Source: an uncultured Lachnospiraceae bacterium (GTDB taxonomy: Bacteria; Bacillota; Clostridia; Lachnospirales; Lachnospiraceae). Taken from it: a stretch of 37,284 nt of DNA. The stretch's first letter is position 1. The number at the start of each line of letters is the position of its first letter. Positions 1,782 through 8,154 of the stretch are shown here, piece after piece. Location: the NCBI GenBank assembly GCA_944381405.1, contig CALWLA010000021.1:1-37284 (forward strand), written 5' to 3'. The notes under the pieces were generated by a model. The model saw only the letters and a program-made list of their open reading frames with translations. It did not search any database and was not told where the DNA came from. Both the position numbers and the translations under genes were made by a program.

Positions 1782-3266
1782 TTATTTCCGGTTTTCCTCC
1801 GCCATCTGGGCAAAGAGGGGTTTTAACGCCGGATAAAGGGTCCTGAATCTCTGATAGCCCTTTTCATAGGCCTCTGTCAGAGCCGGATCCGGCAGCACGG
1901 TTTCTCTGACGCGGCAAAGTTTTTCCGCAGCTTCCGGAACGCTTTCGTAGGCCCCGTCTCCCACCGCCGCCAGGATCGCCGCTCCAAAGGCCGGTCCTTC
2001 CTCGTTTTCCGGCACCTCTACCGGAAGATTCAGGATCGAAGCCGCGATCTTTTTCCAGAGACCGCTTTTCGCGCCGCCTCCGCAGATGCGGGTATGATCC
2101 GGCTTCACGCCCAGGCCTCTGGCCACCTCCAGGGAATCCCGCAGGCCATAGATCACGCCCTCCAGCACTGCCTGGGCCATTTCCCGTCTGCCGGTATCGG
2201 CGCTCATGCCGATAAAGGCGCCTCTTGCCGCAGGATCGTTATGGGGGCACCGCTCTCCCATCAAATAAGGAAGGAAGTATACCGGGTTATGCCCGAGTTC
2301 CCGGATGCCTGCCTGCTCCTGCTGGTTGTCTGTGGCCTCGATCACCTGCTCCATCCACCATTTCCAGCAGGAGGCTGCGCTGAGCATGCAGCCCATCAGA
2401 TACCAGCCTCCATCGGCGTGAGCGAAATTGTGCAGGGCGTTGCCCGGCACCTCATGATAGACCGCAGATGGAATCAGGATCGTACCGCTGGTGCCAAGGG
2501 AAAGGTTGCAGCCGCCGGTGCCCACGGTGCCTGTGCCCACTGCCGCCGCCGCATTGTCCGCAGCCCCTGCGGCGATCCTGACGGTTTCCGGAAATTCCAG
2601 CGCTTCCGCCAGATCCTTTTTCAGGGTCCCCACCACCTCAAAGCTCTCGCAGAGCCTGGGCAGCATCTCCGTTTCCAGTCCGCAGAGCTTCAGCATCTCC
2701 TGGGACCACTGTTTTTTCTCCACATCCAGCAGCAATGTGCCTGCCGCGTCGGAATAATCCGTGCAGAAGCTTCCTGTCATCCGGTAGCTGAGATAATCCT
2801 TTGGCAGCATGATCTTCCGGATCCTGGAAAAATTCTCCGGCTCATTGTCCCTGACCCAGAGGATCTTCGGGGCCGTAAAGCCTGCAAAGGCGATATTTCC
2901 GGTCCAGGCTGCCAGCTGCTCCTTCCCGATCTTTTCGTTCAGATATTCCGTTTCTTTGACCGTGCGCCCGTCATTCCATAAGATCGCCGGACGGATCACC
3001 CGGTCATCTGCGTCTAACGCCACCAGGCCGTGCATCTGGCCGGAATAGCTGATGGCAGCGATCTTCGACCTGTCGCAGTCCTCCGTTAATTTCCGAAGCC
3101 CGGTCTTGGTTTTTTCATACCAGTCCTCCGGGTCCTGCTCCGCCCAGCCGCTTTTGGGGAAGGACAGGGGGTATGCCTCCGTAACGGTCTTAAGCACCCT
3201 GCCTGTTTCATCCATCATCAAAAGCTTTACGCCTGAAGTTCCAAGATCGATTCCGATATAATACAT
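1782..3266 (-). CDS. xylB: Xylulokinase
   Basis: A 494-residue FGGY-family sugar kinase that phosphorylates D-xylulose to xylulose 5-phosphate with ATP, feeding the pentose phosphate pathway in the cytoplasm. It opens with the phosphate-1 loop YIGIDLGTSGVK. The substrate-binding motif SGQMHGLV lies near residue 75, and the C-terminal half holds the ATP-binding signature ICGGGAKSGLW (about 393-403) and EGPAFGAAILA (about 423-433). Length is normal for XylB (about 480-500). The start has a GGAAGGAG site 6-7 nt upstream and a strong promoter. It is divergent from mglB, so a shared sugar-responsive regulator is plausible. Specificity within FGGY kinases is assigned from overall resemblance, and a related pentulose is possible. 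Confidence 0.93.
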   Translation of the reverse strand: MYYIGIDLGTSGVKLLMMDETGRVLKTVTEAYPLSFPKSGWAEQDPEDWYEKTKTGLRKLTEDCDRSKIAAISYSGQMHGLVALDADDRVIRPAILWNDGRTVKETEYLNEKIGKEQLAAWTGNIAFAGFTAPKILWVRDNEPENFSRIRKIMLPKDYLSYRMTGSFCTDYSDAAGTLLLDVEKKQWSQEMLKLCGLETEMLPRLCESFEVVGTLKKDLAEALEFPETVRIAAGAADNAAAAVGTGTVGTGGCNLSLGTSGTILIPSAVYHEVPGNALHNFAHADGGWYLMGCMLSAASCWKWWMEQVIEATDNQQEQAGIRELGHNPVYFLPYLMGERCPHNDPAARGAFIGMSADTGRREMAQAVLEGVIYGLRDSLEVARGLGVKPDHTRICGGGAKSGLWKKIAASILNLPVEVPENEEGPAFGAAILAAVGDGAYESVPEAAEKLCRVRETVLPDPALTEAYEKGYQRFRTLYPALKPLFAQMAEENRK

Positions 3267-3516: not shown

Positions 3517-4839
3517 ATGAGGAAAACAAAGATTTGCGCTTTAGCGGCTGCTTCCGTTATGGCCCTCAGCCTGGTTGGCTGCGGCGGCGGTTCCACGGAA
3601 GAGACCACTACTGCTGCAGCAGCTGCTGAGACCGAGGCCGCAGAGGCAGAGGCTGAAGAAGCTGCACCGGCCGAGGAAGTAGCCAACAAGGATAAGCCGC
3701 TTGTATGGTACAACCGTCAGCCTTCCAACAGCTCCACCGGCGAGCTGGACATGGCTGCCCTTTCCTTCAACGAGGACACCTACTATGTAGGATTTGACGC
3801 TAACCAGGGTGCTGAGCTCCAGGGTCAGATGATCAGAGACTACATCGAGGCAAACATCGACACCATCGACCGTAACGGCGACGGCATCATCGGTTACGTT
3901 CTGGCAATCGGCGATATCGGACACAACGACTCCATCGCTCGTACCAGAGGCGTTCGTTCCGCACTTGGTACCGCAGTTGAGGCCGATGGAAACATCAACA
4001 GCGATCCGATCGGAACCAACACCGACGGCACTGCAACCGCAGTACAGGATGGCACCATCGAGGTAAACGGAACCACCTACACCATCCGTGAGCTCGCTTC
4101 TCAGGAGATGAAGAACTCCGCAGGTGCTACCTGGGATGCTGCAACCGCAGGTAACGCGATCAACACCTGGTCCGCTTCCTTCGGCGATTCCATCGATGTA
4201 ATCGCTTCCAACAACGACGGTATGGGAATGTCCATGTTCAACGCATGGTCCAAGGACAACGAGGTTCCCACCTTCGGTTATGACGCAAACGCTGACGCCG
4301 TTGCTGCAATCGCAGAGGGCTACGGCGGAACCATCAGCCAGCACGCTGACGTTCAGGCTTACCTGACCCTTCGTGTTCTGCGTAACGCACTTGACGGCGT
4401 AGACGTTGACACAGGTATCGGCACCGCTGACGAGGCAGGCAACGTACTTTCTGACGACGTATATGTATACAATGCAGACGAGCGTTCCTACTACGCTCTG
4501 AACGTTGCAGTTACCGCTGAGAACTATCAGGATTTCACCGATTCCACCAAGGTTTACGAGCCGGTTTCCAACCAGCTTGACGCAGCAGAGCATCCCACCA
4601 AGAAGGTATGGCTTGATATCTACAATGCAGCAGATAACTTCTTAAGCTCCACCTATCAGCCGCTCCTTCAGAACTATGACGATCTGCTGAACCTTGAGGT
4701 TGAGTACATCGGCGGCGATGGCCAGACCGAGTCCAACATCACCAACCGTCTGGGCAACCCGAGCCAGTATGATGCATTCGCCATCAACATGGTTAAGACG
4801 GACAACGCAGCTTCCTATACGGCACTGCTTAATCAGTAA
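3517..4839 (+). CDS. mglB: Circularly permuted galactose/glucose-binding lipoprotein (MglB-type)
   Basis: A 440-residue lipoprotein component of the MglBAC sugar ABC importer, anchored outside the membrane. The signal peptide ends at lipobox LVGC (Cys22). Residues 23-58 are a Thr/Ala/Glu tether. The core then starts at KPLVWYNRQPS (60-70), which corresponds to PVVFFNKEPS about 90 residues into mature E. coli MglB. The order continues canonically: Ca-loop-like DRNGDG (118-123), GHND and Arg (135-142), Trp206, SNND (231-234) and GYD (254-256). The domain's normal C-terminus is reached near 348. A linker (about 349-362) then leads to residues 363-440, with IYNAADNF (368-375) and FAINMV (421-426). 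These match the canonical N-terminus (IYKYDDNF, LAINLV). This is a circular permutation, not a truncation. Nearly all sugar-contact residues are retained, so glucose/galactose binding is likely. Confidence 0.9.
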   Translation: MRKTKICALAAASVMALSLVGCGGGSTEETTTAAAAAETEAAEAEAEEAAPAEEVANKDKPLVWYNRQPSNSSTGELDMAALSFNEDTYYVGFDANQGAELQGQMIRDYIEANIDTIDRNGDGIIGYVLAIGDIGHNDSIARTRGVRSALGTAVEADGNINSDPIGTNTDGTATAVQDGTIEVNGTTYTIRELASQEMKNSAGATWDAATAGNAINTWSASFGDSIDVIASNNDGMGMSMFNAWSKDNEVPTFGYDANADAVAAIAEGYGGTISQHADVQAYLTLRVLRNALDGVDVDTGIGTADEAGNVLSDDVYVYNADERSYYALNVAVTAENYQDFTDSTKVYEPVSNQLDAAEHPTKKVWLDIYNAADNFLSSTYQPLLQNYDDLLNLEVEYIGGDGQTESNITNRLGNPSQYDAFAINMVKTDNAASYTALLNQ

Positions 4840-4977: not shown

Positions 4978-6486
4978 ATGGCAGATAAGAAAGATGATAT
5001 CGTCTTATCGATACGTGGTATGAGCAAGTCCTTCGGCCGGAACAGGGTGCTGGATCATATCAATCTGGAGGTAAAACGGGGAACCGTTATGGGCCTGATG
5101 GGCGAGAACGGCGCCGGAAAGTCCACCATGATGAAGTGCCTTTTCGGTACCTATCAGAAGGATGAGGGCACGATCTTTCTTGACGGCAAGGAAATCAGTT
5201 TTTCCGGACCAAAGGATGCGCTTGAAAACGGTATCGCAATGGTTCATCAGGAGCTGAACCAGTGTCTGGAAAGAAATGTGATCGACAACCTGTTCCTTGG
5301 ACGCTATCCGGTCAACTCCATGGGAGTCGTAGACGAAGGCAGAATGAAGAAAAAGGCGTCCGAGCTTTTCAGAAAGCTTGGCATGACCGTAAACCTCACG
5401 CAGCCGATGCGGAACATGTCTGTATCCCAGCGGCAGATGTGTGAGATCGCCAAGGCAATCTCGTATAACTCAAAGGTGATCGTTCTTGACGAGCCCACCT
5501 CCTCTCTGACCGTACAGGAGGTTGACAAGCTGTTTGAGATGATGCGTATGCTGAAGGAGCAGGGTATCGCCCTGATCTATATCTCCCACAAGATGGATGA
5601 GATTTTTGAGATCTGCGATGAGATCTCCGTGCTCCGGGATGGTAAGATGGTCATGACAAAGGCCTCCAAGGACACCAACATGAACGAGCTGATCGCAGCC
5701 ATGGTCGGACGTTCCCTGGAGAACCGTTTCCCGCCGGTGGACAATACACCGAAGGATGTCATCCTCTCCGTGCAGCATCTCTCAACAAAATTCGAGCCTC
5801 ATTTGCAGGATATCACATTTGACGTAAAGGAAGGGGAGATCTTCGGACTCTACGGCCTGGTAGGCGCAGGACGTACAGAGCTTCTGGAAACCATCTTCGG
5901 CGTCCGGACCAGAGCGTCGGGCCGCGTATATTTCCGGAACCGTCTCATGAATTTCAACAACGCAAAAGAAGCAATCGAGCATGGTTTTGCCATGATCACT
6001 GAGGAACGAAAGGCGAACGGACTTTTCCTGAAGAGCGATCTGACCTTTAACACCACCATCGCAAATCTGGAACAGTATAAGTCCGGTCTGGCGCTCTCCA
6101 ATACGAAAATGGTAAAGGCCACCAACAACGAGATCAAGATCATGCGCACCAAGTGCATGGGTCCCGACGATATGATCTCAAGCCTCTCCGGCGGTAACCA
6201 GCAGAAGGTCATCTTCGGAAAATGGCTGGAGCGCAGTCCGCAGGTATTCATGATGGACGAGCCCACCAGAGGTATCGACGTTGGTGCAAAATATGAGATC
6301 TACGAGCTGATCATCAACATGGCCAAGCAGGGAAAAACGATCATCGTTGTTTCCTCTGAGATGCCGGAGATCCTGGGTATCACCAACCGGATCGGCGTTA
6401 TGTCCAACGGACGGCTGTCCGGTATCGTAAACACCAAGGAAACGGATCAGGAAGAGCTCTTGAGACTCAGTGCAAAATACCTATAA
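4978..6486 (+). CDS. mglA: Galactose/methyl galactoside importer ATP-binding protein
   Basis: A 502-residue tandem ABC ATPase that energises the MglBAC sugar importer from the cytoplasm. The first domain has Walker A GENGAGKS (43-50), the degenerate signature SVSQRQ, and Walker B ending LDEPTSSL. The second domain has the altered P-loop GLVGAGRTE characteristic of the carbohydrate CUT2 family, then LSGGNQQK and MDEPTRGID. Length matches MglA/RbsA/XylG (about 500). The ATG has an AGGGG site 10-11 nt upstream. It is the second gene of the operon, 18 nt before mglC. The sugar specificity comes from MglB; the ATPase alone would not distinguish galactose from ribose or xylose systems. Confidence 0.95.
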   Translation: MADKKDDIVLSIRGMSKSFGRNRVLDHINLEVKRGTVMGLMGENGAGKSTMMKCLFGTYQKDEGTIFLDGKEISFSGPKDALENGIAMVHQELNQCLERNVIDNLFLGRYPVNSMGVVDEGRMKKKASELFRKLGMTVNLTQPMRNMSVSQRQMCEIAKAISYNSKVIVLDEPTSSLTVQEVDKLFEMMRMLKEQGIALIYISHKMDEIFEICDEISVLRDGKMVMTKASKDTNMNELIAAMVGRSLENRFPPVDNTPKDVILSVQHLSTKFEPHLQDITFDVKEGEIFGLYGLVGAGRTELLETIFGVRTRASGRVYFRNRLMNFNNAKEAIEHGFAMITEERKANGLFLKSDLTFNTTIANLEQYKSGLALSNTKMVKATNNEIKIMRTKCMGPDDMISSLSGGNQQKVIFGKWLERSPQVFMMDEPTRGIDVGAKYEIYELIINMAKQGKTIIVVSSEMPEILGITNRIGVMSNGRLSGIVNTKETDQEELLRLSAKYL

Positions 6487-6504: not shown

Positions 6505-8154
6505 ATGGCAAACGAAAAAATTCTTACGGCTGAGCAGGAGCTTAAGCTGCGTCAGCCCATCGACGAATATGTCGGCAAGATCCAGAAGCAGATCGACAGC
6601 CTGAGAGCGGATGGAACCGACATGGTGGTTTCCCTCCAGAACGATATCGACGTTACGAAAAAGGATCATATCTTCACGCAGGAGGAGAAGGCCGCAAAGC
6701 TCAAGGAGCTTTCCGCAGCCCTGGAAAAGGCAAAGGCTGTAGAGGCTCAGAACAAAGCCGAGGTATCCAAGCTCATCGCAGATGCGGAGGCCTATATCAA
6801 GGCGCACTTCGACAAGGAATACTATCAGCCTGTCATCGAAAGCTGCAAGCAGGAAAAGATCCAGGCTCAGGAAAAATATAAGGCAAGGGTTGCAGAGCTG
6901 GAAAAGCAGCATCAGGAAACCGTTTCCAAGCTCACGGATCATCAGGAGATCAAGGACGAGAACTATGTTCACAAAAACCGTCTCTTCGATGCAAAGATGC
7001 AGCTGGAAAAGGACAACCAGGCTGCCAAGGATCGGCAGCACGCCGCCTTCACCTACAAGTATCATCTCATCGACATGCTGCGCATGTCCAAGTTTACCTT
7101 TGCGGAGTCTCTGGCAGAGAAATGGGAGCATTACACCTACACCTTTAACCGCAGAGACTTCCTGCTGAAGAATGGTCTTTACATCGCCATCGTGCTGATC
7201 TTCATTCTTCTGTGCGCCATCACGCCGGCCATCAAGGGCGTTCCGCTGCTGACCTTCAACAACGTGCTGAATATCCTGCAGCAGGCTTCCCCGAGAATGT
7301 TCCTGGCCCTTGGCGTAGCCGGTCTGATCCTCCTGGCTGGTACCGACCTTTCCATCGGACGTATGGTAGGTATGGGTATGACCGCTGCAACCATCATCAT
7401 GCACCAGGGAATCAACACCGGTTCCGTGTTCGGCCACATTTTCGACTTCACCGGACTTCCGACGATCGGAAAGATCTTCTTCGCGCTGCTGGTATGTATC
7501 GTGCTCTGCACCTTCTTCACCACCATCGCAGGCTGCTTCACCGCACGGTTTAAGATGCATCCCTTCATCTCCACCATGGCCAACATGCTGATCATCTTTG
7601 GTCTGACCACCTATGCCACCAAGGGCGTATCCTTCGGTGCCATCGAGTCCACCATTCCCAGCATGATCATCCCGAAGCTGAACGGCTTCCCCACCATCAT
7701 CCTGTGGGCTGTGGCCGCAGTGGTGATCGTATGGTTCATCTGGAACAAGACCACCTTCGGTAAGAACCTGTATGCCGTAGGCGGCAATGCAGAGGCTGCA
7801 GCCGTTTCCGGTATCTCCGTATTCAAGGTAACTGTAGGTGCTTTCATCCTGGCAGGTATCCTGTACGGCTTCGGTTCCTGGCTTGAGTGTATCCGAATGG
7901 TAGGATCCGGTTCTGCCGCTTATGGACAGGGCTGGGAGACTGACGCCATCGCTGCCTGCGTAGTCGGCGGCGTATCCTTCACCGGTGGTATCGGTAAGAT
8001 CTCCGGCGTAGTGGTAGGTGTGCTGATCTTCACCGCACTGACCTACTCCCTGACCATCCTGGGTATCGATACCAACCTGCAGTTCATCTTCTCCGGTATC
8101 ATCATCCTGGTAGCCGTAACCCTCGACTGCCTGAAGTATGTTCAGAAGAAGTAA
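6505..8154 (+). CDS. mglC: Galactose-type ABC permease with long N-terminal coiled-coil extension
   Basis: A 549-residue permease of the CUT2 family; E. coli MglC has about 336. The transporter part starts near residue 216 with a first membrane segment at about 224-242 and multiple hydrophobic spans to the end. It includes the BPD-2 region GTDLSIG and the conserved GGNAEAAAVSGI and GGVSFTGGIG loops. Residues 1-215 are highly charged and helical with no signal peptide or membrane segment, and heptad-like Lys/Glu/Ala patterns run at about 60-180, suggesting a cytoplasmic coiled coil. A TTG at 6496 is in frame, but ATG at 6505 is better placed after AAGGGAG (10-nt spacing). The extension is in frame and not a fusion to any recognisable enzyme. 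The gene is followed by a strong terminator. Confidence 0.9.
   Translation: MANEKILTAEQELKLRQPIDEYVGKIQKQIDSLRADGTDMVVSLQNDIDVTKKDHIFTQEEKAAKLKELSAALEKAKAVEAQNKAEVSKLIADAEAYIKAHFDKEYYQPVIESCKQEKIQAQEKYKARVAELEKQHQETVSKLTDHQEIKDENYVHKNRLFDAKMQLEKDNQAAKDRQHAAFTYKYHLIDMLRMSKFTFAESLAEKWEHYTYTFNRRDFLLKNGLYIAIVLIFILLCAITPAIKGVPLLTFNNVLNILQQASPRMFLALGVAGLILLAGTDLSIGRMVGMGMTAATIIMHQGINTGSVFGHIFDFTGLPTIGKIFFALLVCIVLCTFFTTIAGCFTARFKMHPFISTMANMLIIFGLTTYATKGVSFGAIESTIPSMIIPKLNGFPTIILWAVAAVVIVWFIWNKTTFGKNLYAVGGNAEAAAVSGISVFKVTVGAFILAGILYGFGSWLECIRMVGSGSAAYGQGWETDAIAACVVGGVSFTGGIGKISGVVVGVLIFTALTYSLTILGIDTNLQFIFSGIIILVAVTLDCLKYVQKK

Follow-up and report, generated by a model that had tools for sequence, protein, structure and literature searches.

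The gene at positions 3517-4839 (+) of the window, by which we mean the whole analysed stretch of 37,284 nucleotides, raises the question of how a protein related to the galactose-binding protein MglB comes to carry the N-terminal segment of that protein at its own C-terminus. A natural circular permutation of this kind is a test of how fold, export and tethering limit chain order. With a probability of about 0.9 we consider the gene to encode a natural MglB permutant of the proposed Type Ic / Cluster Bc subclass, serving an Mgl-type (CUT2) ABC importer as its sugar-binding lipoprotein, with a single MglB-derived origin and mostly found together with an extended MglC.

Chain order of the window protein

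Translation and matches to PF13407 and PF18610 identify the gene product as a predicted glucose/galactose-binding lipoprotein of 440 aa. The ORF is preceded by a ribosome-binding-like GGGAGG; gene calls in this study followed a longest-ORF rule, with rough start sites. A divergent xylulokinase-type gene lies upstream (1782-3266, minus strand; TIGR01312, 581.5 bits, cut-off 380.25). By inspection, the protein carries the lipobox LVGC at residues 19-22 (3571-3582, +), in which Cys22 would be lipidated, followed by a low-complexity Ala/Glu/Thr tether of ~34 residues that reaches to about residue 56. The core, residues 57-348 (3685-4560, +), has KPLVWYN at residues 60-66, after the tether, and corresponds to the part of canonical MglB that starts at about mature residue 86 and extends to the C-terminus, as judged from PF13407 positions 93-256, the alignment and the sugar-contact positions. 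A linker (4561-4599, +) lies between the two matched segments and, by analogy with the Treponema pallidum protein TpMglB-2, may form an extra, fourth crossing between the lobes. The moved segment, residues 362-440 (4600-4836, +), corresponds to the N-terminal strands 1-3 of canonical MglB and includes D373 and F375; PF18610, hhalign and the strands of the structural model all place it there.

The domain annotation reflects this arrangement. PF13407 matches residues 85-294 with only its model positions 93-256 of 258, and PF18610 (Peripla_BP_7) matches residues 361-431 with all 71 model positions (143.5 bits, cut-off 36.8). The NCBIfam MglB equivalog NF011924 matches in two pieces with 88.6 bits, below its cut-off of 420, and among the matches listed none in 200 genomes of the window's family exceeded 420 bits.

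In a rotation scan, the mature window protein was rotated in steps of three residues and scored each time on a canonical MglB profile built from 15 sequences (13 from the window's family plus those of E. coli and Fusobacterium). Unrotated, the protein gave a best single domain of 106.7 bits and a separate piece of 7.0 bits. With the native ends joined and the chain opened around residues 306-342, the scan peaked at 126.6-127.7 bits for a single domain, and the best rotation spanned profile positions 57-352; the lowest value printed was 53.7 bits. The homologue of Treponema saccharophilum rose likewise from 150.2 bits unrotated to 181.6 bits. In a PDB search, the top three matches all belong to the one T. 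pallidum protein and are collinear over residues 57-438 (E 5.1e-90 for the best, 5jx2, followed by 4.4e-88 and 4.8e-88), and E. coli-type MglB chains, among the matches listed, match in two pieces.

A first structure prediction from 34 close relatives reached a pLDDT of 57.8 and was discarded. The second started from an alignment to window residues 57-440 that combined 29 permuted homologues with 30 canonical-order MglBs (60 sequences), and it yielded an AlphaFold model with pLDDT 85.1 and pTM 0.85. The last strands of this model, E306-313, E337-344 and E364-368 (model residue 1 being residue 57), are residues 362-369, 393-400 and 420-424. The predicted fold matches TpMglB-2 structures over its whole length, with TM 0.80-0.88 over 386-389 columns; canonical structures, at ranks 5-16, gave query-normalised TM values of 0.47-0.50 over 282-287 columns in a comparison that is sequential and not permutation-aware.

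The preliminary description of this locus had claimed that the N-terminal segment of MglB sits at the C-terminus and that sugar contacts are supplied from opposite ends of the chain. Both statements hold: the first is borne out by the rotation scan, the PF13407/PF18610 layout and the full-length match of the predicted model to TpMglB-2, the second by the alignment of D373, F375 and N66 with D14, F16 and N91 of E. coli MglB. The window protein is thus confirmed as a circular permutation of MglB with a complete sugar site, whose homology to MglB is strong for the core and moderate for the tail.

Nine of the ten glucose contacts are identical to those of E. coli MglB (D373, F375, N66, H136, D138, R142, W206, N233 and D256), the tenth being Q275 in place of E. 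coli N256, and all ten positions of the window protein are invariant in 81/81 permuted proteins. In addition, D118, N120, D122 and D227 fall on calcium positions, which in E. coli MglB we take to include 134-140. Positions 142 and 205 are further calcium positions of the E. coli protein (PMC4990184).

Origin of the C-terminal segment

When the first permuted structure was described, its authors left open whether the tail comes from a different gene (PMC4990184). Such a segment would have converged on the strands that MglB has at its N-terminus, and low sequence similarity speaks for this alternative: the window tail is identical to E. coli MglB at 17/77 positions, and 13% identity is quoted for TpMglB-2 (PMC4990184). 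Reciprocal searches are weak as well. A canonical N-terminal profile scored 7.7 bits on the window tail (E 0.2) and 15.9 bits on that of T. saccharophilum, and it gave higher scores to YtfQ (30.2 bits), XylF (24.5 bits) and RbsB (21.6 bits) of E. coli than to these tails. This profile nevertheless matched 81/81 permuted proteins within their last 100 residues, with E below 0.01 in 3/81.

In the opposite direction, a tail HMM built from the 81 permuted proteins matched the N-termini of the best three canonical MglBs over the full tail length with 22.9, 21.4 and 15.1 bits, the best score among 1,050 shuffled sequences being 7.3 bits. N-terminal matches occurred in 9/18 canonical transport-slot rows, near-identical repeats included (E below 0.01 in 7/18), and in 71/82 rows of the sensor set (E below 0.01 in 3/82). 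In hhalign, the 81-tail profile matched the N-termini of 15 canonical MglBs with 90.2% (E 1.5e-6) and in correct register over positions 2-79. The four best N-termini (L100, L115, L121 and L134) gave 81.9%, the other eleven 42.5%, and those of 71 canonical-order sensor-set MglBs 36.2%. Single E. coli MglB was matched at 2.9%, in the right register, the remainder of MglB at 0.3%, and six further CUT2 binding proteins of E. coli, each entered as a single sequence, at 0.1-0.7%.

Hence the tail profile picks out MglB N-termini in the correct register but not those six other binding proteins. Moreover, the D-x-F sugar contacts are kept in 81/81 permuted proteins, and once the tail is put ahead of the core the junction between the two shows one single-residue gap against E. 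coli MglB. We therefore regard convergence of a foreign segment as unlikely. To the question left in 2016 (PMC4990184), these comparisons of sequence give the moderately supported answer that the tail is a diverged MglB segment. A donor was also sought in a tail tree, in which 87 columns left the choice undecided (AU p 0.172 for the E. coli-like group and 0.357 for the L100/L115/L121/L134 group).

Operon context and proposed function

The permuted gene is accompanied by the two other genes of an importer. mglA (4978-6486, +) encodes an ATPase subunit of 502 aa with two ABC_tran stretches; the MglA model is its best NCBIfam match (669.6 bits, under the 828-bit cut-off). mglC (6505-8154, +) encodes the permease subunit, with PF02653 at 257-540 of a 552-aa reading and an NF007014 score of 265.1 bits, under the cut-off of 386. 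Its ORF opens at TTG 6496, and the ATG at 6505 was chosen as start. A fused two-domain ATPase and a BPD_transp_2 permease adjacent to the permuted mglB constitute the CUT2 layout.

For the window protein we infer ligand, lobe closure, delivery to MglC and lipidation as follows. The lipid tether would run straight into canonical strand 4, and the C-terminal strands 1-3 would supply the D-x-F sugar contacts. As in MglB, glucose (or galactose) would be enclosed between the two lobes, and the closed, tethered protein would hand the hexose, outside the membrane, to the MglC/MglA encoded alongside.

MglC bears a long hydrophilic N-terminal extension of ~215 aa (6505-7152, +) ahead of its first membrane segment. 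The highest 19-residue hydropathy within residues 1-200 is 0.09 and the charged fraction 0.35; a Pfam search of 6505-7122 gave no match. By inspection of the sequence, the extension would be cytoplasmic and coiled-coil-like. A literature search covering papers outside subscription journals found nothing on a coiled-coil N-terminal extension of an MglC permease.

This extension and the permuted gene occur together. Within the window's family, the extension was present in 21/200 genomes, the same 21 that have PF18610. Among 469 candidate stretches obtained from named genomes, 384 encode relatives, of which the best 80 were kept; by tblastn, mglA is present at 76/80 of these named loci, directly after the permuted gene in the loci listed, and mglC at 72/80. 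Wherever the permease domain falls within the stretch, MglC has the extension (72/72). At seven of the eight named loci without mglC, the available sequence stops no more than 2.1 kb from the permuted gene. At the eighth, L082:4781-8906, the permuted mglB is followed by an mglA that breaks off near residue 346, and a match to mglC was not found though 4.9 kb follow; this operon is possibly decayed or rearranged. Since the 80 named sequences are 86-96% identical to that of the window (tblastn), these counts represent mostly one lineage; independent support comes from T. saccharophilum: its MglC of 562 aa carries the extension (L139:11714-12358; local match E 4.9e-9; whole-length identity 43%). 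Nine canonical operons of the family encode an MglC of 331-343 aa, or one of 409-423 aa with an extension that gave no match to that of the window.

The link is not absolute. In the class sample the permuted gene occurred in 4/371 genomes and the MglC extension in 3/371, the exception being genome G925, which has the permuted gene and no match to an extended MglC. Its orphan permuted MglB, 61% identical to that of the window, follows genes for GGDEF and HD-domain proteins on the same strand (L155:13639-17027, minus strand); this diverged protein, which lies outside the 81, has Ile at the D138 position and could have been co-opted as a sensor in cyclic-di-GMP signalling. Taken together, the permuted MglB appears since its origin to have mostly travelled with an MglC bearing a hydrophilic N-terminal extension.

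Might the permuted protein then be mainly a sensor, that is, a chemoreceptor or two-component input, and not a transport binding protein? Among 42 named loci with long flanks (at least 9.9 kb upstream and at least 9.5 kb downstream), 37 have a histidine-kinase match, and the orphan gene of G925 adjoins signalling genes. However, mglA is present in the window as in nearly all named loci, directly next to the permuted gene in those listed, and the two-component genes often come with a canonical-order MglB of their own. We thus consider the sensor reading quite unlikely and keep to that of an importer subunit.

The canonical-order MglB lies on the same strand in 29/42 of the long-flank loci. Across all named loci, many of which are cut short, it was found near the permuted gene in 48/80 (11 upstream, 37 downstream). 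Genes at these loci are commonly arranged as mglB(permuted)-mglA-mglC-response regulator-histidine kinase-second Peripla_BP_4 protein-canonical MglB. Of the PF18610 genomes in the 200-genome sample, at least 15 out of 21 have a canonical match within about 10 kb on the same contig and strand. A search of the window's genome with canonical MglB found no clear twin, because the permuted gene itself was the top match to the twin-type protein (E 1.6e-10), and the two further matches, on contig C6, are weak (4.8e-8 and 1.7e-6).

Proposed single origin of the permutation

For the phylogenetic analysis, the transport set was reduced from 18 rows to 12 by removal of near-identical repeats, and one row was moved in from the sensor set, which itself was cut from 82 to 76; the fused gene L125 was excluded. 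Two entries labelled as binding proteins of the window's own genome (L135 and L136) turned out to be incorrectly chosen ORFs, and no statement here relies on them. The trees comprised 15 of the 81 permuted, 13 transport and 18 of the 76 sensor rows, and second trees were calculated without six long-branch rows. In the core tree, the 15 permuted rows form one clade with support of 100/99, and of 100/100 after the six rows were dropped. This clade is nested in a group with the MglBs of E. coli and Fusobacterium (99/96 and 96/98, respectively). Its stem is long (1.68 and 3.02), and the nearest row in the first tree is L099, another long branch. The permutation would accordingly have arisen once, in an ancestor of the sampled Clostridia and Spirochaetes versions, and from MglB rather than by borrowing of an unrelated tail.

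In genome G149, a 553-aa ORF (L125:5155-6816, +) encodes a complete canonical MglB followed by a partial second copy, mainly the N-terminal segment. The fused gene lies on a different contig from the permuted locus of that genome, and the 16-kb stretch around it contains no mglA match. Such a fused duplication could be the kind of source from which a circular permutant derives. Canonical operons also contain paired mglB genes side by side, for example at L130, L132 and L134, and tandem genes of this type would lend themselves to a permutation through fusion and subsequent trimming.

That fusions like L125 exist might suggest that the window protein consists of two incomplete domains, a truncated MglB joined to a second partial one. 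The preliminary description itself had named a second partial domain as one finding that would speak against permutation. However, each segment is present once and the two jointly make one complete domain; moreover, the predicted model matches 5jx2 over its full length. We consider two incomplete domains very improbable, and a permuted single domain is retained.

Tentatively, these observations can be combined with those on the operon: permuted MglB and extended MglC may form a separate, co-adapted importer subtype common to Clostridia and Spirochaetes, transport may use the permuted protein while the canonical twin serves the two-component sensor, and the permutation may have come about by fusion and trimming of tandem mglB genes. 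We regard this as a possible scenario, though a doubtful one in its entirety. If true, the two chain orders would be maintained together because each has its own task. Loci that encode a permuted and an unpermuted homologue provide natural pairs, with which the functional consequences of chain order can be tested within a single organism.

Distribution and possible horizontal transfer

The preliminary description had pointed to Lachnospiraceae as the place to look for the same domain order, and PF18610 was found in 21/200 genomes of the window's family. It was present in 2/398 genomes of the phylum sample and 4/371 of the class sample, each count including the window's genome. Judged by their titles, the best 80 of 384 relatives are mostly Lachnospiraceae with few other Clostridia; one record titled Bacteroidales (L055) is probably a mislabelled bin. 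All 80 named loci gave one collinear tblastn stretch, starting within 5 residues of residue 57 and ending at 430 or beyond; at L079 and L091 the gene was found by tblastn and missed by ORF calling. That the window is a contig of a 41-contig draft genome could raise the suspicion of a misassembled or chimeric gene, a risk we consider negligible and in effect ruled out, because many relatives show the same collinear order: it recurs in 80/80 named loci, two of them titled complete genomes (L045 and L081), and in solved structures.

A search of viral contigs found no relatives. Among 72,556 plasmid records, two contain 80% or more of the query at a single site. Permuted mglB-mglA-mglC operons are located on these large plasmids of two phyla, namely pTS2 of Treponema saccharophilum (L139) and a plasmid of Agathobacter rectalis (L140); on the A. 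rectalis plasmid, genes for an integrase and an IS91-type transposase lie upstream. Horizontal transfer of permuted MglB has been suggested (PMC4990184), and the plasmid occurrences fit this proposal without proving it.

Lipid anchoring

Tethering has been offered as a possible reason for the permutation (PMC4990184). We found a lipobox in 13/13 canonical transport MglBs sampled and in 76/81 permuted MglBs (pattern search over 80 rows, with L039 examined by eye). Because all sampled canonical transport proteins have a lipobox while 5/81 permuted ones lack it, the idea of anchoring as the reason, as put forward in PMC4990184, is weakened. In the samples examined, anchoring neither needs permutation nor is needed by it.

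The permuted MglBs without lipobox are encoded at L042:5198-6436, L048:3738-5048, L059:9890-11233, L070:9776-11170 and L072:9992-11296 (and L008:502-1740). In the reading used, L042 and L072 have no cysteine ahead of the core, and in L048, L059 and L070 a cysteine occurs only upstream of the likely start. Judging from these readings, such proteins are apparently no longer lipid-anchored.

The preliminary description had further proposed that permutation puts the lipid anchor at a different face of the N-domain. Strands in a beta-sheet are spaced by about 4.8 Å. The N-lobe strand orders printed for the two topologies are 2-1-3-4-5-6 versus 5-4-6-1-2-3, the TpMglB-2 strands being parallel but for one (PMC4990184). 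By these orders, both N-termini would precede strands of the same sheet. As these strands are two positions apart, the permuted N-terminus would be shifted relative to the canonical one by about 10 Å along the same sheet edge, which does not bear out the claim of a different face.

Comparison with known systems

The preliminary description knew of no naturally permuted galactose-binding protein. This has to be corrected, as TpMglB-2 (Tp0684) was reported in 2016: its crystal structure, determined by Brautigam and colleagues, has a topology that is permuted when compared with E. coli MglB and includes a fourth hinge between the lobes (PMC4990184). The permutation itself is therefore already known since 2016, and Pfam holds the moved segment as PF18610. 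The same topology was described for further treponemes and for numerous Gram-positive bacteria, often from the gut, and Type Ic / Cluster Bc was proposed as the subclass name for permuted binding proteins (PMC4990184). By calorimetry, TpMglB-2 bound D-glucose with a KD of 1.1 uM and D-galactose with one of 33 uM; no binding could be measured once the residues equivalent to N66, D256 and F375 had been altered (PMC4990184). Our literature search, again covering papers outside subscription journals, found nothing joining MglB, Lachnospiraceae and permutation.

Because a relative from another phylum was published in 2016 (PMC4990184), the window protein adds one more member to an unusual group that was already known. 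To this we add the evidence on the tail, the linkage to MglC, the canonical twin, the single permuted clade among the sampled MglBs and the members without a lipobox.

The window protein shares with TpMglB-2 (PDB 5JX2, 6BGC and 6BGD, the latter two released in 2018) the order of segments, 42% identity in the structural alignment, residues at the calcium positions (D118, N120, D122 and D227 in the window protein) and Gln at the position of E. coli N256 (Table 2, PMC4990184). It differs in that TpMglB-2 has Asn at the position of E. coli D14 (Table 2, PMC4990184), where the window protein keeps Asp, in its low-complexity tether past the lipobox and in belonging to a genome of another phylum. The moved segment is a member of PF18610, from which no tested feature sets it apart. 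With E. coli MglB (2GBP, 2FVY) and the canonical MglBs of its family, the window protein has in common both pieces of the fold, nine of ten ligand residues and the operon partners mglA and mglC; in contrast, those proteins are unpermuted, and the window protein falls under the cut-off of the MglB equivalog.
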